From Rubripirellula sp. (lineage in GTDB: Bacteria; Planctomycetota; Planctomycetia; Pirellulales; Pirellulaceae): 59,005 nt of DNA. Both the position numbers and the translations under genes were made by a program. This document shows positions 26,827 through 55,381 of this stretch, one piece after another; the first letter of the stretch is position 1, and every line of letters begins with the position of its first letter. Under the pieces are notes generated by a model. That model saw nothing but the letters and a program-made list of their open reading frames with translations, had not been told where the DNA came from and did no database searches. Where the stretch lies: contig JAAXJB010000106.1 in the NCBI GenBank assembly GCA_012270065.1, positions 1 through 59,005 of the forward strand. The letters are read 5' to 3'.

Positions 26827-28710
26827 TCAACTGAATCGTCCATGCAACATCCAACGGTAAGGGGTTCGCGTTTGCTGTCGTTCCTCACGGGTTGTAAGAT
26901 TCCGGAAAATCCACCACCACTGGCCTTGATCAGTTTCAATGCGATAGTAATCCCGGCGGATTGACTTCCCTCTCCACCAGCCGCTTTCAACTCTTTCCGG
27001 CCCCCAATGCTTCATGACCCGATGGTCTTCTCCATTGAATCGAATGCTGTCTGGCAAACGAGGTGATGAAACTCGAAGTTGAAATCCGGTTTTCCCCCAC
27101 GCAACACGCAGCGGTACAGGTTCAGTGAGCAGTGACAGGGGGCGTCTCAAGGCATCACCAACTGACGTCATGACCATCGAATTATCAATTGACGCACCAA
27201 CACCACAGGCGTTGCGTCTTCTTTCCTCTTGTTTTCGCTTCCTTTGTTTTTTTTTCCTGACGGACGAAATCACATTACCTGTCAATGGCCGAATATCAAA
27301 AGCTCTTTCGGGCAAAGGATCATCCTGAAGTTCCAAATACCCAACCCGGTCCCGCCCAACTCTTCCACTCAGTGCATCGATCAAACGGCTGATTGCCAGA
27401 TCAGTCATGCCTGTAGCTGACATCTGGTGTTCATCAAGACCAAACAGTGAAGACTGGCTGCTACGGAGTTCCCCAGACAAAGTGACCATCAAACTCAGCC
27501 TCTCAACTTTTTCCTGAGCATGAATTGACTCCAACTGCCTGGTCACCAAACCACTGAGATGAACGTCATCCACAGTTGGAGCAAACAATCCCACATCCAA
27601 ACTCTTTGTTTTCCCGTCTGTTAGCCGCAAGCAACACGACAGTCGCAGGGCTCCCCGTTGCCGCAACAACAGCTGAGATGTCAATTTCAATGTCAGGCGT
27701 TTGATCCGGTCCATCAGGATTTCCTGATCATTGGTTGGATACTGCAGAGTAAGATCCACCACATACTCCGGTTCTGCCTGATGGACTTTCAAAGGTTCAT
27801 CAACTTCGGCTTTCACCTGTTCCAAACGCAGCACCAAATCACGACCAAGTCGTGTCGCCAACCCACCACGGGGCAATGCCAACAACTGCCTGACGGATCC
27901 AACACCAAGTCTTGCCAACGTCGACACGGTCTCTGCCGGAAGCCTCAATCCCTGAACAGGCAGATTTCCAATCAGGCGACTTGCTTCCTCTCCACCACAA
28001 ACAATCAGGCCTCCATGAAAAACAGGCAATGAATCACTGGACTGCTCAACTGCACACGTGACTTCACTCTCCTGGCATACGGACTCTTGTCCCAACTGGG
28101 ACCAGGTCTGCACCTTTGCTTCGTGTGCCAGGGCCCAGGCTGCAGCCAGAGAATCGGCAACCGCCATCCTGGCTCGCAAATGCTGCTGAGCCAATAATTC
28201 CTTGACTGCGATCAAAAGACCGGCTTCTCCTCCAAACAGATGACTGACCCCGGCTATATCGCACAAAAGTGATTCACATTGATGCCGAGGATGCCCCGCC
28301 CATGGTTTTTCCCCGAGTTCTTCCAAAGCAACCTTGGGAGTGATCTTGCGCTGCACTGAAACCGCAATTTGCTCAAGTGCGTGATGGTCAAGATCTCGAT
28401 CATGCCGCTGAATCAACGGACGATCCCGCAATGGACCGGAATGCATTGATCTTGAACCCACAGTTGAACGAACCAATTCGGCTGCCTCTGCAAGTTTCAT
28501 GGAAACCCGAACACCACGTTTTGATGCCGTATGACAACAGGCAACAACCAGACGTCCTCGACGAGGGTTTTCCCTCCACAGAACCATGGGAGCCTCGGCA
28601 CATGCCGGGGAATCTGGCGAATCCGATTCATGCCCTGCGGCTTGCCACAAATCGCTTCGCAGTCTTTGGATGGGCCAATTCGGAAGCCAGATGCATAGCA
28701 GCCGTTTCAT
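26827..28710 (-). CDS. imuB: ImuB-type Y-family polymerase homologue (catalytically degenerate)
   Basis: 627 residues from the ATG at 28710, which has AAGGA eight bases upstream; the frame is open to 28827. The start MKRLLCIWLPNWPIQRL is the ImuB signature. It replaces the FxDxD metal site of active DinB polymerases, and where DinB has SxDE this protein has LCDIAGVSHLFGG. It should therefore act as a scaffold joining the clamp, ImuA and a DnaE2-type polymerase in damage-induced mutagenesis. A little-finger-like region and a clamp-binding tail are expected but not precisely placed. Its first 28 codons overlap the end of imuA in another frame, so the two are coupled. No dnaE2 lies next to it here. 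Confidence 0.83.
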   Translation of the reverse strand: MKRLLCIWLPNWPIQRLRSDLWQAAGHESDSPDSPACAEAPMVLWRENPRRGRLVVACCHTASKRGVRVSMKLAEAAELVRSTVGSRSMHSGPLRDRPLIQRHDRDLDHHALEQIAVSVQRKITPKVALEELGEKPWAGHPRHQCESLLCDIAGVSHLFGGEAGLLIAVKELLAQQHLRARMAVADSLAAAWALAHEAKVQTWSQLGQESVCQESEVTCAVEQSSDSLPVFHGGLIVCGGEEASRLIGNLPVQGLRLPAETVSTLARLGVGSVRQLLALPRGGLATRLGRDLVLRLEQVKAEVDEPLKVHQAEPEYVVDLTLQYPTNDQEILMDRIKRLTLKLTSQLLLRQRGALRLSCCLRLTDGKTKSLDVGLFAPTVDDVHLSGLVTRQLESIHAQEKVERLSLMVTLSGELRSSQSSLFGLDEHQMSATGMTDLAISRLIDALSGRVGRDRVGYLELQDDPLPERAFDIRPLTGNVISSVRKKKQRKRKQEERRRNACGVGASIDNSMVMTSVGDALRRPLSLLTEPVPLRVAWGKTGFQLRVSSPRLPDSIRFNGEDHRVMKHWGPERVESGWWRGKSIRRDYYRIETDQGQWWWIFRNLTTREERQQTRTPYRWMLHGRFS

Positions 28711-29761
28711 GCCTGTTGTCCTTGTAGCAGCCTGTTGAGCCTGAAGAAACTTGACCTGCAGGCACCGTGTGCAATCTTCCCTGGTCATCAATCTGCAATG
28801 CCGTCTGTTGCCCGGAAACGCCACCACGACAACGATCCACCGTCACCTGCAATTTACGATGAGACGGAACAGCCAGACTCGGAAGACCACCATCATGCGC
28901 ATCCCTCATTTCTCCATCTCCGTCACGCTCACATGAGTCAGCCAAGTGCCTGACATGAAAACGTACTTCCGCAAAACTGGGTCTTCCCCGACTCGCTTGG
29001 GGGCGAACCAACAAGCCAGCTGTTTGCCCAGCTTCAGCTGCCAACTGAAACCGCCGTGCGTCACGATCATCCAAATGAGCACCTGCATGCGCCCAAACTG
29101 CAGCAACGGATTCACATCGCAAAGCCTGGTCAATCGACCAAACCAGATCAGCGTGACGTTTGGGCCGCACCCAGATGATTCGATCAACCGAAATGCCCAA
29201 CGCGACAACCGCAGGAGGGTAAAACACGGACTCACCACAAACGACCACCAAGGGACCCGACTTCGCTGAAACATTCATCAGATTGGCTGCAGCGATCAAC
29301 GAAAGGGCTGCGGCACCTGAACTTTCCGTTTCACCTACCCACTCAGTGATTGCATCTTGTCGCAATCCTCCTCGAGGCAATAATCCATCGAGCGAATCAC
29401 TGCCAGTTGAATAGACTGCCTGTGATCCCTCTTCAGCCTCTGATAGCACGCAACCTAAATCAACTCGCAACTTGCGAAGAACCGTTTCTCGATGCTGCTC
29501 CTGAGTCCCATCTCCCTCGACTTCAGAATCACTCCCGGAACAATCACCTGTACTTGCAGGCAATGGATCCAACACAACACTCTCAACTCCGGAATCCTGC
29601 CAATCCGTTCTTGAACGGAACTCCTGAACCGCTTCTGGAACGGACGGCGAACCATCATCCTCCTGCTGACGATTCGATTCCTTTGAACCAACCCTGCCGG
29701 TTGTCGCACAGCTCTGAGAGCAATACCCATCCAGAAAATCAAATGTTTGCTGATTCGACAT
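28628..29761 (-). CDS. imuA: ImuA-type RecA-like protein
   Basis: About 377 residues from the ATG at 29761 (MSNQQTFDFL); an ATG at 29815 would add 18 and neither has a strong ribosome binding site. RecA-like core features are SLDGLLPRGGLRQDAITEWVG, matching the RecA/ImuA entry (LD..LGGGLP.G...E..G), then AAALSLIAAANLM and IIWVRPKRHADLVWSIDQAL. The Walker A is degenerate, as in other ImuA proteins. ImuA interacts with RecA filaments and ImuB during translesion synthesis. The first 110 residues are polar and likely disordered. A LexA-like site lies upstream, suggesting SOS control. Confidence 0.75.
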   Translation of the reverse strand: MSNQQTFDFLDGYCSQSCATTGRVGSKESNRQQEDDGSPSVPEAVQEFRSRTDWQDSGVESVVLDPLPASTGDCSGSDSEVEGDGTQEQHRETVLRKLRVDLGCVLSEAEEGSQAVYSTGSDSLDGLLPRGGLRQDAITEWVGETESSGAAALSLIAAANLMNVSAKSGPLVVVCGESVFYPPAVVALGISVDRIIWVRPKRHADLVWSIDQALRCESVAAVWAHAGAHLDDRDARRFQLAAEAGQTAGLLVRPQASRGRPSFAEVRFHVRHLADSCERDGDGEMRDAHDGGLPSLAVPSHRKLQVTVDRCRGGVSGQQTALQIDDQGRLHTVPAGQVSSGSTGCYKDNRHETAAMHLASELAHPKTAKRFVASRRA

Positions 29762-29859
29762 CGTAGAACGACATACACGTGAGAAAGAATTTGATGGAAA
29801 ATGAAAATCGGGCATGCAAGAGTGAACCTGGCTGAGGCTCCACTCAAAATGCTATCAAC

Positions 29860-44242: not shown

Positions 44243-44523
44243 AAGCATTTCGTTGGGTGTAAAACTATGCCGGTCCTGCAGATTCTCGGACTTTTACTGC
44301 TGCAGTCCCCAAAGAAGCTAACCCTCACCGGTAAAACCGTCCGATACTATCCGCACAACCCGAAGTAGGCAGACTGGGGCGCGAGGTATTTTCCCTCTCT
44401 CCAGACGAGCCTTGATCCGGGGCACACGGAAATCGCCCACGCTGGCGATGTGTGTAGGGAGGTAGAACTCGGCAGCACGCCGGACTCTACCGCAAAATTA
44501 ACTGCAAGACGGTGGAACAAACG

Positions 44524-45693
44524 ATGTCGGTAAGGAAGCTGGCTTCAAGCGTGCTCGCGGCGATCGCTCTTTTGGGCGGTGCTGCGGTTGCAGACGCCAA
44601 AGACCCTGTAAACGTGGTCGACCCCTTCGAATTTGATCCGGATTTTCGCTGGTTCGAACCAGTGTATGATCTGGACCTTGTTGATATGAAGCCTGAAAAG
44701 AGGGCCCATACCGGCTGGTTCGCTACCTATGACCGGCTGAACCTGTACGCCGGCAGACCCGAACTGTTCAAGCCCGATACGGGCGAGAACAGACTCGATG
44801 GCGGATGGGGTAACCGCTACGAGATCGGTTTCATGCTACCGGGCGACAAACACGGCTGGATGTTCAACTGGACCAAGCTGAATGTATTCGCAGCCGACAC
44901 AGTGAAGCAGGAACGGTTGAATCGTTTCATTCCTCCAGATGAGGAAGACTACCCGCCGCCATCGCCACCATTCGGCTTTCCAGTTCGTATCCAAGAGACC
45001 AACAACCTCGGGTACAACTTCCGTTTCTACAACGTTGGCGAAACCCAGAACGTCTTCAAATACCAGGGATACGAACTCAACAAAACATGGCGAATGACGC
45101 CTTACCACTATGGCGGGATTCTGGAGCCACTGGTTGGCCTGCGGTACATGAAGCTGCGTGACGTCAACGCATTCAACAACTACACCAGTAGCATCTACCC
45201 ACCACCACCACCAGATCCACCAATTGAGCCACCGTTCGAGCAGTTGACGACTCAGAAGAACATCACACTCAATGACATGTTTGGCGGCCAAATCGGCTTC
45301 CGGTACTTCAAACCACATGACCGTTATGTACTGTCCACTGACTTCCGGGCCTTCTTCGGAGGTAACTGGCAATCCTCCAAGTCCCAGACTATCACGGATT
45401 ACACAGAATACGATGGAACGGACCCTGGCAGTGAAGTCGTCTCGATGCAGACCGTCGCAACGCCAGCACTCTTCACCAAGAACAGCGAGTTTTACGTCGG
45501 ATACGACGTGCGGGCAGAAATCAGTTATCAGCTCACACGTATGCTCTCGGTACGCACTGGCATGCAAGCGATCCATATCGGACGCGGCATCTGGCGAGGC
45601 GGAGAAGACCGGCCTGGTACTTTCAATGGCGGGTCAAAGGATCAAGGACTCTTCATGTTCGGTGCGACATTCGGTCTGAACTTCAACCACTGA
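44524..45693 (+). CDS. Exported outer-membrane-like beta-barrel protein
   Basis: 389 residues from the ATG at 44524 (a GTG four codons earlier is in frame). Signal peptide: basic start, then VLAAIALLGGAAVADAKD. The rest is rich in aromatic and alternating polar residues in short strands (WFATYDRLNLYAGRP, YGGILEPLVGLRYMKL, FGGQIGFRYFKPHDRYVL), ending FMFGATFGLNFNH, a C-terminal aromatic strand typical of outer-membrane barrels. It resembles planctomycete barrel proteins of the BBP7 type. Two Pro-rich loops (YPPPSPPF, YPPPPPDPPIEPPFE) may be surface-exposed. It is followed by a strong terminator. Confidence 0.65.
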   Translation: MSVRKLASSVLAAIALLGGAAVADAKDPVNVVDPFEFDPDFRWFEPVYDLDLVDMKPEKRAHTGWFATYDRLNLYAGRPELFKPDTGENRLDGGWGNRYEIGFMLPGDKHGWMFNWTKLNVFAADTVKQERLNRFIPPDEEDYPPPSPPFGFPVRIQETNNLGYNFRFYNVGETQNVFKYQGYELNKTWRMTPYHYGGILEPLVGLRYMKLRDVNAFNNYTSSIYPPPPPDPPIEPPFEQLTTQKNITLNDMFGGQIGFRYFKPHDRYVLSTDFRAFFGGNWQSSKSQTITDYTEYDGTDPGSEVVSMQTVATPALFTKNSEFYVGYDVRAEISYQLTRMLSVRTGMQAIHIGRGIWRGGEDRPGTFNGGSKDQGLFMFGATFGLNFNH

Positions 45694-46164: not shown

Positions 46165-49100
46165 TCATTGTGCGGAAACTGCACGGGATTCAAAACCAAG
46201 TTCTGCAAGATGGTTGGCCGTACGTTCCACAGTGAACCGAATTTCATCATCGCTGTGTTCACTTGTGATGAAAAAACGCAACCTTGCTGCGGATTCATCC
46301 ACGGCTGGATAGAGAATCGGCTGAACGTTAATTCCGTCCCCTTTGAGCCTGTGCGAGAGTCTCAGAGCAACCATGGAATTGCCGGTAATGACCGGTATCA
46401 CAGGAGTTCCGCCGCTGTCACCCGTATCAAGCCCGGCATCCTTGCACAAACTGAGAAACAACTCGCTCTTGGCTCGAAGCGTGGCCACGCGTTCAGGCTC
46501 GGCATCCAAGGTCCGCAGCGCAGCCAAAGCCGCACCGACCTGCCCGGGCGGCATGCCAACACTGAATACAAACCCCGGAGCCGTGTAACGCAACAGCTCA
46601 ATCAATTCCTTGCATCCGGCGATATAGCCTCCACAGGACGCTGCTGACTTGCTCAGCGTCCCCATCCAGATATCGACATCTTTGGCGTCGATTCCAAAAT
46701 GCTCAGCCATACCGCGTCCCGTTTCCCCCATGGTCCCGAAACTGTGAGCTTCATCAACCATCAACAGGCACCGATGTCGCTTTTTGACTTCAATGAACTT
46801 GGGAACATCCGAAAAATCACCATCCATGCTGTAAACACCTTCGATGGCGATCAGGACTCTCCGGTATTGCGATCGAATCTCGGTCAACATCCGATCAAGC
46901 GCTTCATAATCGTTGTGCGGAAATGGCCGTCGACGGGCGCCCGAAAGCAATGCACCCTGAACAATGCTGTTGTGAGCCAGTGAATCGTGAATGATCAGAT
47001 CGCCGGGCCCCACCAGATGTCCAATGGTGGTTTCATTGGTCGCATGCCCACCAACCATCAGAATGGAACTTTCCACCCCGACCCAATCAGCAATCATCTG
47101 CTCCAACTCACCATGAATCGGCTTTTCCCCGGACACCAGACGGCTTGCCGAGACGCTGGTCCCGAATTCGTGGATCGCATCGGCCGCGGAGTTCATCACT
47201 GCGGGATGCCCACTGAGGCCCAGATAGTTGTAACTCGCAAAACTGATCAGCTCATTACCATCGACCACCGTATGATCTCGCACGATCCCATCATGCACGG
47301 TGAAGTACGGGTTAGGCACTCCTGTCATCAGCATTTGCTGCATCGTTGTTTTCAAACGACGGTACTCTGCAAACTGTTCGAAACTATCCTCCGGTTCGAC
47401 ATTGGCCGCTGCACCGACAGCAGCCTCGTCATCGGATGAGATGACTTCGTCAGGGTCGACGACTTCTCCACGTAGCAACGCAGCCGCACGCTCTGCTCCA
47501 CCAGGGGGCAGATAACGTTCAATTGCCAGTGCGGTCTGCCCAATCGTTTCGATGTCATCAAGAACCTGTTCCGGGAATCTGCCACCAAACGTTTTTTCGA
47601 GTTTACGGGCGATTTCAAGACGCTCGAGACTGTCCAGCCCAAGATCCAGAACGATATTTGTTCCAGCTTCCAGAGTCCCAGCCCTTTCACCTGCCACACG
47701 CCGGACATGATGTTTGATGGCCTCAATCACAACAGGATTGACATTGCTGACATCGACCTCTGCTGTACGTCCACCCGCAGCGGCAGCCTGCATCATCGGC
47801 GCCGCATCAAAATTCATCCGGGCTCCACTGTTTTCTTCCCAGCGGACCCATTTCGCAACCAGTTTCAAATCACCATCGCGTACAGCATGCAGACACGCGT
47901 GCCGCTGGATTTTCCCGCTGCTGGTTTTGGGAACACTACTGTTACGAACGAGGTAAACTGCATCGGGCGGCAGATCATGCTCGGCAGTCACCGCACGGCG
48001 GATTCGTTGCAGATTCCCATCTCCATCAAGATTACGCAGGCGAAGCGTCTCTGCAACGATGACCAACTGCTCACGACCGTCATGATCCATGGCAAACGCG
48101 GCAACGGAACCGGCCTGGACTGCATCACAGGATTGTTCCACTGTCTCCTCAATGTCTTGAGGATAGCGATTCACCCCGCGGACAATGATCATGTCTTTCA
48201 CGCGCCCGGAAATGTAAATCTGGCCTTCGTACAGAAAACCCAGGTCGCCTGTCCGCAGATAAGGTCCATCACCATCCATGGTCGTGGCGTGGAAAGTTCG
48301 CTGAGTCGCGTCCTTTCGTTGGTAATATCCCTGCCCAACCGACGGACTTTGCACCCAGATTTCCCCGATGCTGTCAGCGGGCAGAATTTTTCGCGTCGAA
48401 GGATCAACAATGATCACCTTCTCCTCGGGCAGCACAGTCCCACAGCCAACCAGTGTTCGGGCATTCTTGTGATCCGCTGGCACGGGCCGCACGGTTTTCT
48501 CGTCCAAGCCTCCACGATCAAAGGTTCTCAACACAGGTCTCGTTTCGGCAGGTCCTCCCGTAACGATCAGCGTGGTTTCCGCCATGCCGTAACAGGGCAG
48601 GAATGCCGACCGGCTGAAACCACAACGTTCAAACTTCTCCGTGAACGCATTGAGAGTCGTCGCACGAATCGGCTCAGCTCCGTTGAACGCGATTTCCCAG
48701 GTTGAAAGATCGAGTCCCTCGAGTTCATGCTCGTGAATCTTGTCGACACACAGTTGGTAGGCGAAATTCGGACCGCCGCTGATCGTGACACCGTATTTGG
48801 TGATTCCCTGCAACCAGCGCACAGGCCGCTGCAAAAAAGTCATCGGGCTGGTCAAGACATTCTTCCGACCAATGTACAGGGGCATCAGGAGACCACCGAC
48901 AAGTCCCATGTCATGATAAGTCGGTAACCAACTCATCCCGCAAATCTCGACCTTGGGCTCAAAACCATGCAGAATCAATCCGCTGTTGGCAATCAGGTTG
49001 GCATGATTGAGCATGACGCCCTTGGGTGAACCAGTCGACCCCGACGTGTACTGCAACACTGCCAACGTTTCAGGCGTGATTTTCGGTGCTCGCCACGCGT

Positions 49101-49593
49101 CGGCATCTCGAGTTGCCGGCCCATCCGTTCCCACCACCTGCACGCCAATCAGATCGTCATGAGGTCGGTCCCCTGTCAATTGCTCGGCGAGGGCCTGCGT
49201 GGTCAATGCCCAACGCGCGTCGGCGTCCACGACGATTGAACGGATTCTGGAAGCCTTCCGGTTTCGTCGCGGCGGGTAAGCTGGAACTGCAATCGCGCCA
49301 GCGGCGTGGCACGCATAAAACCCAATCACAAAATCGAGCCCGGGCGGGTAAACCAGCAGGACGCGGTCGCCGCTTCGTATCCGACATCGCCCCTGCAGAT
49401 ACCCGGCGAGCGCGCGTACCTCGTCCCACAATTGGGAATACGTCAATTGCTGCTCCACCGACTCAACATCGGTGAAGATATAAGCTGTTTCGTTTGGTCT
49501 TTGCTCAGCCCAGTACCGCAAAACCGAGACAAAATTGTCCTGGGGAGGCATCTGGGAACCGAAATAATTGTGCAAATCCACGGTGGATGTCAC
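46165..49593 (-). CDS. FAAL-ACP-alpha-oxoamine synthase fusion
   Basis: 1142 residues in three parts. (1) Fatty acyl-AMP ligase (about 1-590): VYPPGLDFVIGFYACHAAGAIAVPAYPPR is a FAAL signature; ATP loop YTSGSTGSPKG (182-192), RTGDLG (447-452), and Lys561 in KTSSGKIQR. (2) Acyl carrier domain (about 620-700) with phosphopantetheine Ser655 in LGLDSLERLE. (3) PLP alpha-oxoamine synthase (about 765-1135) with DEAHSFG (947-953) and Lys982 in GTLSKSAASCGGY. It should activate a fatty acid, load it on its carrier and condense it with an amino acid with loss of CO2. Serine would give a sphingoid base. No ketosynthase or thioesterase is present. Divergent from the amide-synthetase gene. Confidence 0.88.
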   Translation of the reverse strand: MTSTVDLHNYFGSQMPPQDNFVSVLRYWAEQRPNETAYIFTDVESVEQQLTYSQLWDEVRALAGYLQGRCRIRSGDRVLLVYPPGLDFVIGFYACHAAGAIAVPAYPPRRNRKASRIRSIVVDADARWALTTQALAEQLTGDRPHDDLIGVQVVGTDGPATRDADAWRAPKITPETLAVLQYTSGSTGSPKGVMLNHANLIANSGLILHGFEPKVEICGMSWLPTYHDMGLVGGLLMPLYIGRKNVLTSPMTFLQRPVRWLQGITKYGVTISGGPNFAYQLCVDKIHEHELEGLDLSTWEIAFNGAEPIRATTLNAFTEKFERCGFSRSAFLPCYGMAETTLIVTGGPAETRPVLRTFDRGGLDEKTVRPVPADHKNARTLVGCGTVLPEEKVIIVDPSTRKILPADSIGEIWVQSPSVGQGYYQRKDATQRTFHATTMDGDGPYLRTGDLGFLYEGQIYISGRVKDMIIVRGVNRYPQDIEETVEQSCDAVQAGSVAAFAMDHDGREQLVIVAETLRLRNLDGDGNLQRIRRAVTAEHDLPPDAVYLVRNSSVPKTSSGKIQRHACLHAVRDGDLKLVAKWVRWEENSGARMNFDAAPMMQAAAAGGRTAEVDVSNVNPVVIEAIKHHVRRVAGERAGTLEAGTNIVLDLGLDSLERLEIARKLEKTFGGRFPEQVLDDIETIGQTALAIERYLPPGGAERAAALLRGEVVDPDEVISSDDEAAVGAAANVEPEDSFEQFAEYRRLKTTMQQMLMTGVPNPYFTVHDGIVRDHTVVDGNELISFASYNYLGLSGHPAVMNSAADAIHEFGTSVSASRLVSGEKPIHGELEQMIADWVGVESSILMVGGHATNETTIGHLVGPGDLIIHDSLAHNSIVQGALLSGARRRPFPHNDYEALDRMLTEIRSQYRRVLIAIEGVYSMDGDFSDVPKFIEVKKRHRCLLMVDEAHSFGTMGETGRGMAEHFGIDAKDVDIWMGTLSKSAASCGGYIAGCKELIELLRYTAPGFVFSVGMPPGQVGAALAALRTLDAEPERVATLRAKSELFLSLCKDAGLDTGDSGGTPVIPVITGNSMVALRLSHRLKGDGINVQPILYPAVDESAARLRFFITSEHSDDEIRFTVERTANHLAELGFESRAVSAQ

Positions 49594-49833
49594 CGCCTGG
49601 AATCAAGGGGGGAGGAATACGGAGCAACAGGTTGAGTTTTTACGCTCATCCCGACTTCTAGTCGCCGCTCGGAAAATGTAAGCTCATGATGCAAATTCAT
49701 GGTTGGTTCAACTTGAGTTCGGATAGTGTATACCCAAGACCTCGCATTGTAATTTCGGTATCCTTTCGCTGCTCTGTTGAATTGATGCTGCTCGCGTCAA
49801 CCAATCCGAACAACTCGTTTTACCAGACGATTC

Positions 49834-51270
49834 ATGACAAAAAACCCCAAGCCCGATTCATCTTCGGAGCAACGCCCTGTTTCGCCCTGGTCTGCCCCGG
49901 ATAAACCGCAAAGCTTCCAAGGGCAACCACAAAGATTGATTGATCGAGTGGTGAATCTGCTGGACCCTGCTGGTAATATTTTACTCGGAACCAGCCTTGA
50001 GCAAGCCACTGCATCGGTGAAACGAGGAGATGTTGAGGCAGTACGTCGCATTGGCGGACAATATGCATTATGCGAACAATCGGGAAAAACCATCCGGATG
50101 GCGCGTTCCATTGGCCGCCCAATGCGGTATTTCCTTGCCAAAAGAGCTGAGGGCCCTGCTCTCATCATAGCTGAACGAATTGATGAAATCGCTCAGCAGT
50201 TGGAGAGCGAGGGTCTCGGCGATCAGTTCAACCCATCCTACACTCGAATGGTACCCGCACACCACCTGCTTGAACTCCAACTGGTGGGCTGCCCGGACCC
50301 CAACCCCGTCCTGACGAGATTTTTTGCTCCAAAACGCAATCGTCTGCCGGCTGACATTGACCAGATCGGTCTGCAATACATCGAAAAACTCGCCGAAGTC
50401 TGTGATCGATGGATTGAGACGATCCCGCAAAGCGAGCCCATTGGCGTGATGTTCAGCGGTGGAATCGACAGCGGGGCCGTCCTCGTCGTGCTCGACTACC
50501 TGCTCAGACGCCGCGGTCAATCCCCGTCGCGTCTCAAAGCGTTCACTCTCGCGGTCGACGGAAATCCCAGCGACAGTGTGCAAGCCCGTGAGTTCCTTCA
50601 AAAAATTGAACGCGAAATCTATCTTGAAGTCGTCGATGTGCCACGCGAAGACCTCTCATGGCGTGACGCAATCCGCGTCATTGAGGACTACAAGCCGCTT
50701 GACGTCCAATCAGCAACCATGGGCCTCGCGTTGCTGAAAGCTCTCCGCAAACGCTATCCCGACTGGAAGTACCTGATCGATGGTGATGGAGGAGACGAGA
50801 ACCTGAAGGACTATCCCATCGAAGAGAACCCGGAACTGACCATTCGCAGCGTACTCGGGAATCGGATGCTGTATCAGGAAGGTTGGGGCGTCGATGCAGT
50901 CAAGCACTCACTCGTTTACAGCGGCGGTCAAAGCCGAGGTCACGTGCGCACCAGCGCTCCCGCTGCCCTTCTCGGCTTCTCGGGATTCAGCCCATTCGCC
51001 GTCCCTGACGTCATCGAGATTGCCGAAGAGATCCCATTTGTCGCCTTGACCGATTGGGACCATGAAAAACTCTACGCGCTCAAAGGCAGCATCGTATCCT
51101 CGGGTGTACGTCAACTGACAGGCGTAGACATGCCAACCTATCCGAAGCAGAGATTTCAAAGGGGCGCGGCCGACTCGGCCACCTTTGAATCCGTCTTCCC
51201 TTCCGATGACCAGGATTATCGAGACGCTTTCAAAGAAGCCTTTGTCAATCAGCCAATTTCGCCACATTGA
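49834..51270 (+). CDS. Asparagine-synthetase-like protein without glutaminase Cys
   Basis: 478 residues. The C-terminal half (about 175-478) is the ATP-pyrophosphatase domain of the asparagine synthetase/beta-lactam synthetase family: SGGIDS at 208-213 and YLIDGDGGDENLKDYP later. The N-terminal part (about 35-170) resembles the remainder of a class II glutaminase domain (RRIGGQYALCEQSGKTIRMARS) but lacks the strand that carries the N-terminal Cys, so glutamine-dependent ammonia supply is unlikely. It could use free ammonia or another amine, or close a ring as beta-lactam synthetase does. The first 30 residues are polar. It is divergent from the megasynthase. Confidence 0.75.
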   Translation: MTKNPKPDSSSEQRPVSPWSAPDKPQSFQGQPQRLIDRVVNLLDPAGNILLGTSLEQATASVKRGDVEAVRRIGGQYALCEQSGKTIRMARSIGRPMRYFLAKRAEGPALIIAERIDEIAQQLESEGLGDQFNPSYTRMVPAHHLLELQLVGCPDPNPVLTRFFAPKRNRLPADIDQIGLQYIEKLAEVCDRWIETIPQSEPIGVMFSGGIDSGAVLVVLDYLLRRRGQSPSRLKAFTLAVDGNPSDSVQAREFLQKIEREIYLEVVDVPREDLSWRDAIRVIEDYKPLDVQSATMGLALLKALRKRYPDWKYLIDGDGGDENLKDYPIEENPELTIRSVLGNRMLYQEGWGVDAVKHSLVYSGGQSRGHVRTSAPAALLGFSGFSPFAVPDVIEIAEEIPFVALTDWDHEKLYALKGSIVSSGVRQLTGVDMPTYPKQRFQRGAADSATFESVFPSDDQDYRDAFKEAFVNQPISPH

Positions 51271-51459: not shown

Positions 51460-52815
51460 TCAAACCTTCCAGCTCCAAGGCGATCGGTAGGCGATCTCCC
51501 TGAGTTTCTGGTCCGCCTCTGCATCATCAACCACACGCTCGCGTGCCGCATCCCATTTCAGCGGTCGCCTCAGCCTGCTGGAAACATAACCCAGATGCCC
51601 AGGGGTGATTGAACGATGCCCCGTTTCAGCCGGGGCAATCGTTGCTTGCCGACTTCTGACGCAGGCCAGAAAATTTCCCATGTGGTCATCAGAAGAATAA
51701 ACCTTGATTGGCCCGGGATCAAAATCAGGTTTTGCCCAGCGCGAATCGGAAGTTTGAATTTTACCCCGATTCACAAAGACTGCTCCCTCGCTCCCAATCA
51801 ACTCCAAGCCGGGACGGTTTTGGCTCGAAATTGTCCCGATCACATCGCCTGGATACTGGCAGCGAATGGTATACCGCACGGGCGTGTCATAGACCTCCGT
51901 TTCCGGGAACGTCCAGTCAATGGCTTCCACTTTCTCCGGCCCCGATTTGTCTAGCCCAAGCGCCCAGTGTGCGATGTCATTGTGATGCCCGATCCAGTCC
52001 ATCAGTACACCGCCGCCATAAGCACTGTGACCACGCCACCAGCGATGGTGTCTGGCCCGCATGTAAGGCAGAACCGGCGATGGCCCACACCAGAAATCGT
52101 AATCAAGTTGTTCAGGCGGTGTGGTTGTGTCAAATTCACCCATGGGCTGCGAATACCCAGGTTGCTGCCCGACTTTGATGGTGTGAAGCTCGCCCAATAC
52201 ACCATTTCTTGCCAACTCAACGGCACGACGGAAAAGCCGGTCACTGCGTTGCTGTGATCCAGTCTGAAAAATGGCCCCCTGCTTTTCCACTTCACGGTAA
52301 ACTGCCTGCCCCTCGGCAAAAAGATGCGTCACGGGTTTTTCACAATACACATCCTTGCCTGCAGCAATCGCATCCAACGTACATTTGGCATGCCAGTGAT
52401 CCGGCGTGGCAACAATCACAGCGTCGACATTTTCGCGTCCAAGCAATTCCCGATAGTCGCGATGCTGCGTGATACCACCGGATGACCTCCGTATTCCGTG
52501 CTTGGCATAGGCAGCGTCAATTTTCTGTGCTCCTGAGAGCAGACCGTACGCAGTACCTGTTCCCCACGCACGATCACGATGATGCTTCTGGTCAACGTCA
52601 CAGACGGCGACAATGCGTACGTGCGCATGGTGCCGTACCAGAGAATCAATCAGGTTGAAACCACGCGACCCCAGCCCAATCACACCTATTTCCAGACGCT
52701 CATTTGCCTGCATGCCTTTGGCGATTGGCAAACAGCTTGTCTGAGCCAGGCAGACACCACTTGCCGCCAGAAATTCACGTCTTCCGATAGCCGCCGCTGC
52801 GGATTTGCTGCTCAT
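51460..52815 (-). CDS. Tat-exported Gfo/Idh/MocA oxidoreductase
   Basis: 451 residues from the ATG at 52815. A Tat signal (GRREFLAASGVCLAQ) leads into a Rossmann domain (LEIGVIGLGSRGFNLID) and CEKPVTHLF, the canonical EKP motif; the C-terminal domain has MDWIGHHNDIAHWALG and IRCQYPGDVIG. Many planctomycetes carry large sets of such Tat-exported members beside sulfatases, where they probably act on sugars freed from polymers; cofactor would be bound before export. It starts 19 bases after the esterase stop in a likely three-gene operon. The frame is open to 52869 but overlaps the esterase. Confidence 0.85.
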   Translation of the reverse strand: MSSKSAAAAIGRREFLAASGVCLAQTSCLPIAKGMQANERLEIGVIGLGSRGFNLIDSLVRHHAHVRIVAVCDVDQKHHRDRAWGTGTAYGLLSGAQKIDAAYAKHGIRRSSGGITQHRDYRELLGRENVDAVIVATPDHWHAKCTLDAIAAGKDVYCEKPVTHLFAEGQAVYREVEKQGAIFQTGSQQRSDRLFRRAVELARNGVLGELHTIKVGQQPGYSQPMGEFDTTTPPEQLDYDFWCGPSPVLPYMRARHHRWWRGHSAYGGGVLMDWIGHHNDIAHWALGLDKSGPEKVEAIDWTFPETEVYDTPVRYTIRCQYPGDVIGTISSQNRPGLELIGSEGAVFVNRGKIQTSDSRWAKPDFDPGPIKVYSSDDHMGNFLACVRSRQATIAPAETGHRSITPGHLGYVSSRLRRPLKWDAARERVVDDAEADQKLREIAYRSPWSWKV

Positions 52816-52834
52816 TGACCAGTCTCCAATGCAC

Positions 52835-53830
52835 TCATCTGGATGTTGCCTGCCTGAAATTCCCATCATGGAACTTCATGATACGCTCAGCAGCGATGTC
52901 ATAAATCCCCATGGCAGAGTGCGGAACTCCCGGAACAATGACTTTCTGATAATTCACACCCAGTGACGTGAGAAAATCCATGTACTCAAGGTTGTTTTGG
53001 TAATTGAAGCCTTTAGTGCCGACATAAATCATCCAGTTCACCGCCGGCCCCTCGCGTCGGGCAGCATAACTACGGGCGAGGTCCCACGCGTTATCGCCCT
53101 CGGCGAATCTCAGATCAGGAGACTCCACGCCACCTGATTCGCTGATCCGCTTTTCCGTCGCGTAACCACCTCCTCCTGCAGCAGCGCTACAAAACAGATC
53201 CGGATGTCTCAGAGCCAGTCGCATCGTACCCCGCCCGCCCTGAGAAAAACCCTCCAACCCGCGACCTTCGCGGCTGGCGATCGTGCGATAGGTAGCATCG
53301 ATGTGTGGAATCAGTTCGTTGATGAACACACTGGCGCCCTGTGCCTTTTCATTCTCCGGCATGTTGTAGTGGCTCACCGGCCCACCATTGACGAAGACGT
53401 AAATCATGGGGAGAACGCCGCCCTCTTTCATGATCCTGTCGATGGGTTCAGCAAGACGATGACTCTTGCACTCGTTTCCAGGACGCCCACCATGCAGATA
53501 GTAAACCACTGGATAACGCTGCCGGGTCTTTCCGTAGTCCTTTGGCACCAAAACCAGATACCCAACATCCATACCAAGACTGGGACTCCGAAACGTCTCA
53601 TGCCGCAGTGTCTTCAAAGCACTGCCGGGCACAGGGTTGACCCACCTGAACGGTGGCGAAGCCTTTCGTGGTTTCTTTGCCGCCTTGGCTTGTTTCTGTT
53701 TACCTGAAGCCTGCGTGCCAGAACGTTGCGTCCTGAATTCATCAGCCTGATTTCGACTGGAATCCTGAGCATGCGCGATCAAGCCAAACAGAAACAACAG
53801 AAATACACCATGAAGTACTCTCATCATCAT
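52835..53830 (-). CDS. Exported esterase (alpha/beta hydrolase)
   Basis: 331 residues with a signal peptide (FLLFLFGLIAHAQ), then a Lys/Ala-rich linker (about 25-60). The hydrolase domain begins near 70 with RHETFRSPSLGMDVGYLVLVP and has YYLHGGRPG, the nucleophile Ser196 in GFSQGG, and a late His in PGVPHSAMG. This is the esterase D/feruloyl-esterase-like group. It could remove acetyl or aryl esters from a polysaccharide. It starts four bases after the sulfatase stop, so they are cotranscribed. Confidence 0.83.
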   Translation of the reverse strand: MMMRVLHGVFLLFLFGLIAHAQDSSRNQADEFRTQRSGTQASGKQKQAKAAKKPRKASPPFRWVNPVPGSALKTLRHETFRSPSLGMDVGYLVLVPKDYGKTRQRYPVVYYLHGGRPGNECKSHRLAEPIDRIMKEGGVLPMIYVFVNGGPVSHYNMPENEKAQGASVFINELIPHIDATYRTIASREGRGLEGFSQGGRGTMRLALRHPDLFCSAAAGGGGYATEKRISESGGVESPDLRFAEGDNAWDLARSYAARREGPAVNWMIYVGTKGFNYQNNLEYMDFLTSLGVNYQKVIVPGVPHSAMGIYDIAAERIMKFHDGNFRQATSR

Positions 53831-53833
53831 GCC

Positions 53834-55381
53834 TCACTTTGCCTGCCGATTGAGAGGCTCTTCGACAACGATCGATTTGGGGAAATCAGCAGCCTGTGCC
53901 CCACCGCGTTTCGCCCAACGCTTGTTCTGTGAGCTACCACGCGGCTGATTCATCGGTATGTCCATTCCTCCCGAATCGCCAAGCATCGCGTACAGACGAT
54001 TCTCCATCTCTTTTACGATCGAACGGTAATCCGGCTGGTTGATCAGGTTGTTGGTTTCGCCCGGATCGGTTTTCAAATCATACAGTTCATCAACATCCCA
54101 CAACCCGTAATACGTGATGTACTTGAACCGGTCTCCACGAAGGGCAAACTGGGTGGGTGACTGCGGGAAGTTCTTCTCCCAGTAGTAGACGTAAAGAAAG
54201 TAGTCCCGCCAGTCCATGTCCGGCTGATTCGGAAGATCAAGAAAACTGACCCCGTCCATGTACTCCGGTGTTCCCAAACCAGCGGCATGCAAGATCGTTG
54301 GTCCGATGTCGATGTTGCCGATGACATTCTCCACAACCTTCCCGCCTTCATAAAGATCAGGACACTGCATCATCATCGGCACTCGAATGGAAGCCTCATA
54401 CGACACACGCTTGTCAATCAAACCGTGCTCACCCCACATGAAACCGTTATCTCCCATGTAGATCACCAGAGTCTCATCATGTATGCCCATTTCCTTCAGT
54501 TTTTCCAGAACACGTCCAACGCTATCGTCAACAGCCAGCACTGATTCACAATAGCGGCGATACAGATAATCGAGTCCTTTATCACTGTGATAACTGAAAT
54601 CAATTCCATGCCAACTGTTCAGTTGATCTCGCACCCAGCGGGGTGCATCATTGTCCGCGCTGATCTCCTTGCCGCGGGGTAGAAAACTCAGATCTTCGTC
54701 CTTGTAGCGATCTTCATGTCGCTTCGCCGGAGTAAAATTCGCATGCACAGCCTTGTGCGACAGGTACAAAAAGAATGGTTGTTCAGAGTTCTTTTGCTGC
54801 TCGAGCCAATCGACAGCGTAATCCGTCAATTCATCAGTGATGTAACCCTTCTGCTTGACCCGCTGGCCGTTCACGTTCAGTGTGTATCGGGGTCCCGGCG
54901 GCAAGTAGTTTCCCTGACCACGAAAACTGATCCAATGATCAAAGCCGGGTCGCGGCCCATCGTGGGCACCGCCCATGTGCCACTTTCCAATGAAACCGGT
55001 TTTGTACCCCGCTTGCTGAAGGTATTGCGGAAAAAACAAGGTTCCTTCCGGCACAAGCCGGTTGTTATCAATCACACGGTGCTTGTGTGTATACAGCCCA
55101 GTGAGAATCGAAGCCCGACTCGGTGAACAGAGTGAGGTGGTTACGAATGCGTTCTTGAGGTGAACTCCGTTTGCCGCCAGAGAATCCAGATGCGGCGTCT
55201 CAAGGAATGGATGCCCCATGAATCCCATCGCGTCATATCGATGATCATCCGTGAGGACAAAAACGACATTGCGAGGTTGGATTCCCTCCCGCTTGCCCGT
55301 GTCAGGAAGTTCATCGGCCAACAATGGGCAACTGACAAGGAACCCGACAAGTGACACAGCAGCAAAAATTACTGAACGCAT
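53834..55381 (-). CDS. Exported type I sulfatase
   Basis: 515 residues with a signal peptide (AAVSLVGFLVSCPLLA). NVVFVLTDDHRYDAMG gives the metal ligands Asp45 and Asp46, and Cys85 in CSPSRASILTG is the residue converted to formylglycine. Later motifs GFIGKWHMGG, VIYMGDNGFMWGEHG and ELYDLKTDPGETNNL are typical of the family. It cleaves sulfate esters from a sugar or phenol outside the cytoplasm; the group is abundant in marine planctomycetes that grow on sulfated polysaccharides. It is first in the sulfatase-esterase-oxidoreductase operon. No modifying enzyme is in the window. Confidence 0.93.
   Translation of the reverse strand: MRSVIFAAVSLVGFLVSCPLLADELPDTGKREGIQPRNVVFVLTDDHRYDAMGFMGHPFLETPHLDSLAANGVHLKNAFVTTSLCSPSRASILTGLYTHKHRVIDNNRLVPEGTLFFPQYLQQAGYKTGFIGKWHMGGAHDGPRPGFDHWISFRGQGNYLPPGPRYTLNVNGQRVKQKGYITDELTDYAVDWLEQQKNSEQPFFLYLSHKAVHANFTPAKRHEDRYKDEDLSFLPRGKEISADNDAPRWVRDQLNSWHGIDFSYHSDKGLDYLYRRYCESVLAVDDSVGRVLEKLKEMGIHDETLVIYMGDNGFMWGEHGLIDKRVSYEASIRVPMMMQCPDLYEGGKVVENVIGNIDIGPTILHAAGLGTPEYMDGVSFLDLPNQPDMDWRDYFLYVYYWEKNFPQSPTQFALRGDRFKYITYYGLWDVDELYDLKTDPGETNNLINQPDYRSIVKEMENRLYAMLGDSGGMDIPMNQPRGSSQNKRWAKRGGAQAADFPKSIVVEEPLNRQAK

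Follow-up and report, generated by a model that had tools for sequence, protein, structure and literature searches.

A putative self-loading serine palmitoyltransferase-type fusion and its divergent asparagine-synthetase-like neighbor in Pirellulaceae

What would be made by a single protein that appears to activate, carry, and condense an acyl group, and does the gene diverging from it belong to the same pathway? This question is raised by a 59,005-nucleotide stretch of DNA from Rubripirellula sp. (GCA_012270065.1, contig JAAXJB010000106.1), which we call the window. It encodes P0001, a fusion of a fatty acyl-AMP ligase (FAAL), an acyl carrier protein (ACP) domain, and a pyridoxal phosphate (PLP)-dependent alpha-oxoamine synthase, and, on the opposite strand, P0002, an asparagine-synthetase-like protein. 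The original prediction had seen in the fusion the whole first step toward sphingolipid-like compounds or alpha-aminoketones and had taken P0002 as its partner. With a probability of roughly 60%, we interpret P0001 as a self-loading serine palmitoyltransferase (SPT)-type fusion for a sphingoid-type aminoketone, and P0002 as a member of a separate system with a radical S-adenosylmethionine (SAM) enzyme and a flavoenzyme.

The fusion protein and its distribution

The fusion and its domains are laid out as follows.

46165..49593, minus strand: FAAL-ACP-alpha-oxoamine synthase fusion, P0001, 1142 amino acids, with a GTG start (open reading frame [ORF] and Pfam)
47854..49536, minus strand: fatty acyl-AMP ligase domain, residues ~20-580, with core residues K191, E339, D450, R464, and K561 and matches to solved FAALs
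47524..47730, minus strand: acyl carrier domain, residues ~622-690 (PF00550, 2.7e-9), with the codon of the phosphopantetheine Ser655 at 47629-47631
46204..47361, minus strand: PLP alpha-oxoamine synthase domain, residues ~745-1130, with the codon of the Schiff-base K982 at 46648-46650 and a DEAHS motif

Pfam recovered these domains in the order AMP-binding (8.6e-70), DIP2-like AMP C-terminal (1.2e-8), PP-binding (2.7e-9), and Aminotran_1_2 (1.5e-39). The best matches of the N-terminal domain (residues 20-582) were solved FAALs, namely, 7r7f (540 bits) and 3kxw (404 bits), which aligned with residues 20-579, and both the adenylation core motifs and a near full-length alignment with solved FAALs were found. 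The alignment with 7r7f and 3kxw, inspected with regard to the FAAL-specific insertion that blocks use of coenzyme A (CoA), had small gaps only. Among the NCBIfam models, the fatty-acid--AMP ligase PRK05850 scored 426 bits, compared with 332 and 202 bits for the CoA ligases PRK07768 and PRK06187. The top NCBIfam score on P0001, 544 bits, went to a nonribosomal peptide/polyketide synthase model and fell below its cut-off, as did the scores of all 25 NCBIfam models shown for P0001 against their curated cut-offs. K191, E339, D450, R464, K561, Ser655, S817, H874, D947, H950, T979, K982, and R1106 were present in all 44 fusion proteins compared, i.e., the one in the window and those of 43 further loci (44 fusion windows were taken, and L106, which lacked a fusion ORF, was left out). 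The architecture originally proposed, including the carrier serine and the PLP lysine, was thus borne out by Pfam, by solved structures, and by this conservation.

Which oxoamine synthase the PLP domain represents was addressed by alignment, motif, and tree. P0001 retains the equivalents of SmSPT S81, H138, S185, D210, A212, H213, T241, K244, and the C-terminal Arg, residues whose roles in binding PLP and the substrate carboxylate have been described for SmSPT (PMC10196870 and PMC3870968). The PLP lysine, the stacking His, the Asp/His pair, and the substrate Arg expected of an SPT are all present, and the S185 equivalent and the DEAHS motif were each found in 43 of the 44 fusion proteins. At this position, the two SPTs compared have DDAHS or DEAHS, ThAOS and BioF have DDAHG or DEAHG, and KBL has DDSHA or DDSHS. 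A 27-row tree placed the fusion PLP domains, with moderate support, with plant LCB2 (99/96), in a wider branch with SmSPT (87/79), and apart from KBL and BioF. At E ≤ 1e-20, the source genome holds two further oxoamine synthases: a KBL (574 bits to solved KBL), whose next gene looks threonine-dehydrogenase-like by eye, and a BioF-like enzyme (238 bits). Elsewhere, an oxoamine-synthase domain related to that of the fusion lies inside a 2586-residue open frame (L068, G034:C37:389204-390706).

Judging from the families to which its domains belong, P0001 would adenylate a free fatty acid with its FAAL domain and pass the acyl group to Ser655 of the carrier domain in cis. The PLP domain would then join the acyl group to an amino acid, for which L-serine is the most likely candidate, with release of CO2, and the product would be a 3-keto long-chain base or a close aminoketone. 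A serine-type condensation is our best guess from the sequence comparisons. The fusion would probably supply a membrane lipid and not a species-specific signal. The original prediction's view that one chain carries out the entry reaction toward a sphingolipid-like compound or an aminoketone is supported, with the substrate and product predicted from sequence.

By its matches, the fusion belongs to the core genes of a single family. Of 241 Pirellulaceae genomes from 68 genera (the family genomes), 233 matched some part of P0001 at E ≤ 1e-100. Because such a match may be to the FAAL part alone, the carrier-PLP half was searched separately; at E ≤ 1e-90 it was found in 226 of the 241 genomes and in 65 of the 68 genera, with matches far stronger than those of the KBL/BioF paralogs, which reach ~1e-48 to 1e-64. 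At least 149 family genomes had a single match running across the FAAL and PLP domains. In a sample of 294 genomes from the phylum, seven matched the fusion at E ≤ 1e-150, four of them from the same family; in G243, from among the other three, the match covered the FAAL part only. The searches with P0001 scored two candidates per genome in the phylum sample and three in the family, and misses are possible. Given homologs across the whole family, the fusion is therefore not a product of chance.

The divergent neighbor, its companions, and the surrounding genes

The divergent side of the locus contains the following features.

49594..49833, no strand: intergenic gap of 240 bases between the divergent starts, aligned with five close relatives
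49834..51270, plus strand: asparagine-synthetase-like protein P0002, 478 amino acids (PF00733, 9.6e-13), with a predicted fold nearest asparagine and beta-lactam synthetases
49945..50328, plus strand: P0002 N-terminal glutaminase-like domain, residues ~38-165, with no conserved N-terminal cysteine
50356..51243, plus strand: P0002 ATP-pyrophosphatase amide-synthetase domain, residues ~175-470, with SGGIDS at 208-213, DGDGGDE at 316-322, and K438

The ORFs and the Asn_synthase match agree with the divergent arrangement, with 240 bases between starts, that had been described before. A shared regulatory element in this gap was considered and rejected: a strong block appeared in six close sequences, but in only 1 of 43 wider upstream regions with up to 2 mismatches.

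The predicted model of P0002 (mean pLDDT of 80 and pTM of 0.81) has a two-domain asparagine-synthetase fold, and Foldseek aligned it with asparagine and beta-lactam synthetases over 431-475 columns at query-length TM scores of 0.53-0.60 and 14-17% identity. S208, G209, G210, D212, S213, and K438 are invariant in alignments of 24 and 28 sequences, and where asparagine synthetase B has its GEGxDE loop, P0002 has DGDGGDE. No conserved cysteine was found in the first 100 positions of the P0002 family (alignments of 41 and 24 sequences, with starts chosen by ORF), and P0002 should therefore not hydrolyze glutamine. The family thus has the SGGxDS ATP-pyrophosphatase loop of glutamine-dependent asparagine synthetases without their N-terminal catalytic cysteine. 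The predicted model matches a beta-lactam synthetase in having an asparagine-synthetase fold without the glutaminase cysteine. With this cysteine missing, P0002 would probably use an amine nucleophile to form an amide, in the manner of a beta-lactam synthetase. An asparagine-synthetase-like enzyme has been described that forms a nitrile via an amide (PMC13060819), and P0002 may therefore have a chemistry other than amide formation. Residues 342-369 (window 50857-50940; EGWG and SGGQSRG) are nearly invariant in the family and unresolved in the predicted model; that alignment omitted rows whose matched stretch contains a stop. Several of the nearest named relatives of P0002 are from metagenome-assembled genomes (MAGs) labeled Rhodopirellula or Rubripirellula.

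The gene that P0002 tracks encodes a radical SAM enzyme. Among 40 synthetase loci, a radical SAM gene was found in 21 (directly downstream on the same strand in 20), a flavoenzyme gene in 18 (second downstream in 17), and the fusion in 8, and the genes often overlap; 36 synthetase-only windows had been taken for this comparison, and L127, L129, L131, and L134, without a synthetase ORF, were left out. In 80 named synthetase loci, several of them on contigs cut off too soon to show the neighbors, the radical SAM gene lay nearby in 37, the flavoenzyme in 27, and the fusion in 10. Across the family genomes, the synthetase (148, i.e., 155 matches minus 7 weak ones at E 1.5e-7 to 4.1e-4) and the radical SAM gene (143 at E ≤ 1e-30) occurred together in 139 of 241 and were both missing from 89 (phi 0.89, uncorrected for kinship). 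In the phylum sample of 294, the genomes with the synthetase and those with the radical SAM gene were the same 13, and in 10 of these the two genes were adjacent. Eleven of these 13 had no fusion match at E ≤ 1e-150 (two candidates scored per genome), and the synthetase and radical SAM genes extend to another family within the class, represented by 11 genomes of the sample. All three genes are found in Roseithermus. In the source genome, the radical SAM and halogenase-like flavoenzyme genes lie together on another contig (G000:C47:35678-38051, i.e., L165:7676-10100), away from the synthetase gene.

The companion radical SAM enzyme carries a CxxxCxxC cluster motif, and its best named match was RaSEA (TIGR01210; 94 and 65 bits versus a cut-off of 212). 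Of the generic radical SAM enzymes, Elp3 lies closest to its predicted model (mean pLDDT of 95). The flavoenzyme is nearest CmlS, QhpG, and GoxB, and LodB also matched, all below cut-off. We infer that P0002 would act together with the RaSEA-like radical SAM enzyme and the halogenase-like flavoenzyme. Some variation was seen among the copies: the radical SAM copies in L165-L170 lack the C-terminal cysteines of the aligned operon copies, and G148 (L115 and L116) and G166 (L072 and L119) have two synthetase copies each, with one copy in G166 adjoining the fusion and the other adjoining the radical SAM operon. In K23_9, a 110-residue Zn-ribbon and acyl-carrier-like ORF lies between the synthetase and radical SAM genes (L070:5879-6211, minus strand). 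As a fourth conserved gene this ORF was rejected; among the loci compared, it was found in the two loci of K23_9 only, apart from one chance-level match. The stieleriacine pathway was also set aside as an answer, since the main text of PMC12479983 contains neither "asparagine synth-" nor radical SAM. No description of the synthetase-radical SAM-flavoenzyme set was found in a literature search whose coverage excluded most subscription papers.

On the other hand, the presence of the synthetase is nearly independent of that of the fusion. Both were found in 145 family genomes, the synthetase alone in 3, the fusion alone in 88, and neither in 5 (phi 0.09). In a 115-row synthetase tree, built by a quick method with a midpoint root and without identical rows and short matches, all 18 rows with adjacency to the fusion fell inside one 30-row group (support 84), which also holds Stieleria and Rhodopirellula rows without adjacency. 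The adjacency is most simply explained by one local joining that was later lost in places. Two MAGs, labeled Rhodothermales and Bacteroidetes, respectively, have the synthetase and a lone oxoamine-synthase match but no fusion match. A co-transfer of the fusion and the synthetase to Rhodothermia was considered and rejected on account of these two MAGs and of Roseithermus, in which the fusion match has 39% identity and its oxoamine-synthase domain falls outside the clade. With a phi of 0.09, synthetase genomes without a fusion match, and a synthetase that tracks the radical SAM gene instead, the partnership originally proposed is therefore not supported, and conserved pairing in the neighborhoods of homologs, a check that the original prediction had asked for, was not the general rule.

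Contrary to the original prediction, P0002 is not the only gene adjoining the fusion; a further gene flanks it on the opposite side.

44512..45693, plus strand: gene with a sub-threshold BBP7-porin match (Pfam), convergent with the fusion

This BBP7-porin-like gene was the commonest recurrent neighbor of the fusion (15 of 43 fusion loci), and we do not think that it is functionally linked to it. Elsewhere in the window, an ORF that matches impB/mucB/samB below threshold stands beside a same-strand 395-residue ORF (26827-29815), a pair that we take to be possibly an ImuA/ImuB-type mutasome cassette, and genes for a Gfo/Idh/MocA oxidoreductase, an esterase, and a sulfatase follow one another on the minus strand (51460-55381). 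The tRNA and Rfam scans of the window gave no matches.

Weighing the alternatives

Several observations weigh against our interpretation and are taken up here with the alternatives. Within P0001, two substrate-pocket positions differ, the serine-contacting Asn52 of SmSPT being Tyr and Met271 being Val, and the SPT-like Ser after the PLP lysine was found in just 36 of the 44 fusion proteins. The best oxoamine-synthase model of NCBIfam for P0001 was bioF (343 bits), ahead of SPT (293 bits), with none at cut-off (293 versus 640 bits for the SPT model NF047600 and 263 versus 500 for NF047599). Support for the SPT grouping is moderate, because the tree has only two SPT references, which do not group together, and a number of long branches. 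Among the recurrent neighbors in the 43 fusion loci, not all of which were annotated, no ketoreductase or acyltransferase of the kind anticipated earlier stood out; no ceramide gene family was recognized beside the fusion in these loci either, no search having been aimed at ceramide genes. The two substitutions near the substrate would suit a fusion that uses glycine or alanine and whose product, possibly a signal, is a 1-deoxy-type base or a long-chain aminoketone instead of a serine-derived sphingoid base. The same holds for the lack of a recognized sphingolipid gene family near the fusion, for the reported, if poor, acceptance of alanine and glycine by SmSPT itself (PMC10196870), and for the top solved match, ThAOS, an enzyme reported to use various amino acids (PMC10230504), which scored 222 bits versus 220 for SmSPT. 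However, Tyr at the Asn52 position is common to plant LCB2, an SPT subunit, the DEAHS motif and the tree grouping are SPT-like, the CqsA chains scored 84 bits against the 220 of SmSPT, and near-universal presence in the family suits a lipid better than a signal. We therefore consider the use of glycine or alanine rather unlikely.

As for the neighbor, nine family genomes carry the synthetase but lack the radical SAM gene, four show the opposite, and the family-wide co-occurrence counts cover the synthetase, the radical SAM gene, and the fusion. The divergent fusion-synthetase pair is found in at least 24 family genomes from five genera; the fusion, synthetase, and radical SAM genes adjoin one another in Roseimaritima sediminicola and lie together in K23_9, with the small Zn-ribbon/ACP-like ORF between. 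These arrangements leave room for a functional link between fusion and synthetase in the pair-bearing branch, and they would be expected if the two enzymes jointly made an amidated lipid or signal. Against such a joint product stand the near-zero phi, the 11 phylum-sample genomes that have the synthetase and radical SAM genes without a fusion match, the two MAGs with only a lone oxoamine-synthase match, and the confinement of all adjacent rows to one tree group, and we regard it as improbable. Also improbable to us is its more specific form, in which an undescribed synthetase/radical SAM/halogenase-like pathway joined to the fusion in the Rubripirellula-Roseimaritima branch would couple its carboxylic product, through the synthetase, to the aminoketone amine and give an amidated long-chain base. 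A more serious alternative, which we hold as possible though not favored, is that the synthetase/radical SAM/flavoenzyme set modifies a peptide, a protein, or tRNA and not a small molecule, given that the best family match of its radical SAM enzyme is a tRNA enzyme, that the model of this enzyme is nearest Elp3, and that the protein maturases QhpG, GoxB, and LodB are among the matches of the flavoenzyme. All of these named matches are far under their curated cut-offs, though, and no short ORF within 900 bases is common to the loci. An adjacent precursor of a ribosomally synthesized and posttranslationally modified peptide was accordingly rejected (587 short ORFs from 22 loci, no between-locus match at E ≤ 0.01), a result that counts against an adjacent precursor peptide only.

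Comparison with known systems

The synthetase/radical SAM/flavoenzyme set offers a compact separate target. P0002 shares the fold and the SGGxDS loop with beta-lactam and asparagine synthetases and differs from them in its DGDGGDE loop, in its lack of a conserved N-terminal cysteine, and by an identity of 14-17%. Its radical SAM companion shares CxxxCxxC with the archaeosine enzyme RaSEA, at 94 bits and thus below the cut-off of 212.

Blastopirellula belongs to Pirellulaceae. The architecture of the fusion is already in print, as an A-CP-PLP type in Blastopirellula marina (A3ZWL3) and Microscilla marina (A1ZVW4) whose cluster type and product are marked as unknown (PMC3870968, Table 2); these A-CP-PLP2 proteins have the same order of AMP-binding, carrier, and Aminotran_1_2 domains as P0001 and are likened to it by domain order alone. 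The novelty first ascribed to the fusion hence does not extend to its architecture, and stands in that no characterized product of such a fusion was found in a literature search that left most subscription papers outside its coverage; passages of PMC10896814, PMC12619533, PMC8895605, and PMC9386255 contained nothing on it. What is new beyond PMC3870968 is the near-universality in the family, the conservation of the catalytic residues, and the SPT-like grouping. BioWF, which has been characterized, is likewise a natural acyl-activating enzyme joined to an alpha-oxoamine synthase in one protein, but it is a di-domain enzyme without a carrier, on the pimeloyl-CoA route to biotin (PMC9544090).

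The bacterial SPT system, in which separate genes encode the ACP and an acyl-CoA synthetase (PMC9386255; SmSPT, 3a2b), would share with the fusion the first step, the ACP-bound donor, and most active-site residues. Unlike it, the fusion has the three activities in one chain and differs at the two pocket positions. Spt-like proteins in 138 Planctomycetota MAGs have been taken to suggest that members of this phylum make sphingolipids (PMC11334938, from metagenomic data). If the fusion makes sphingoid bases, it would bear on this suggestion, and nearly all members of the family would make sphingolipids, entering the pathway through a single protein and without the use of CoA.

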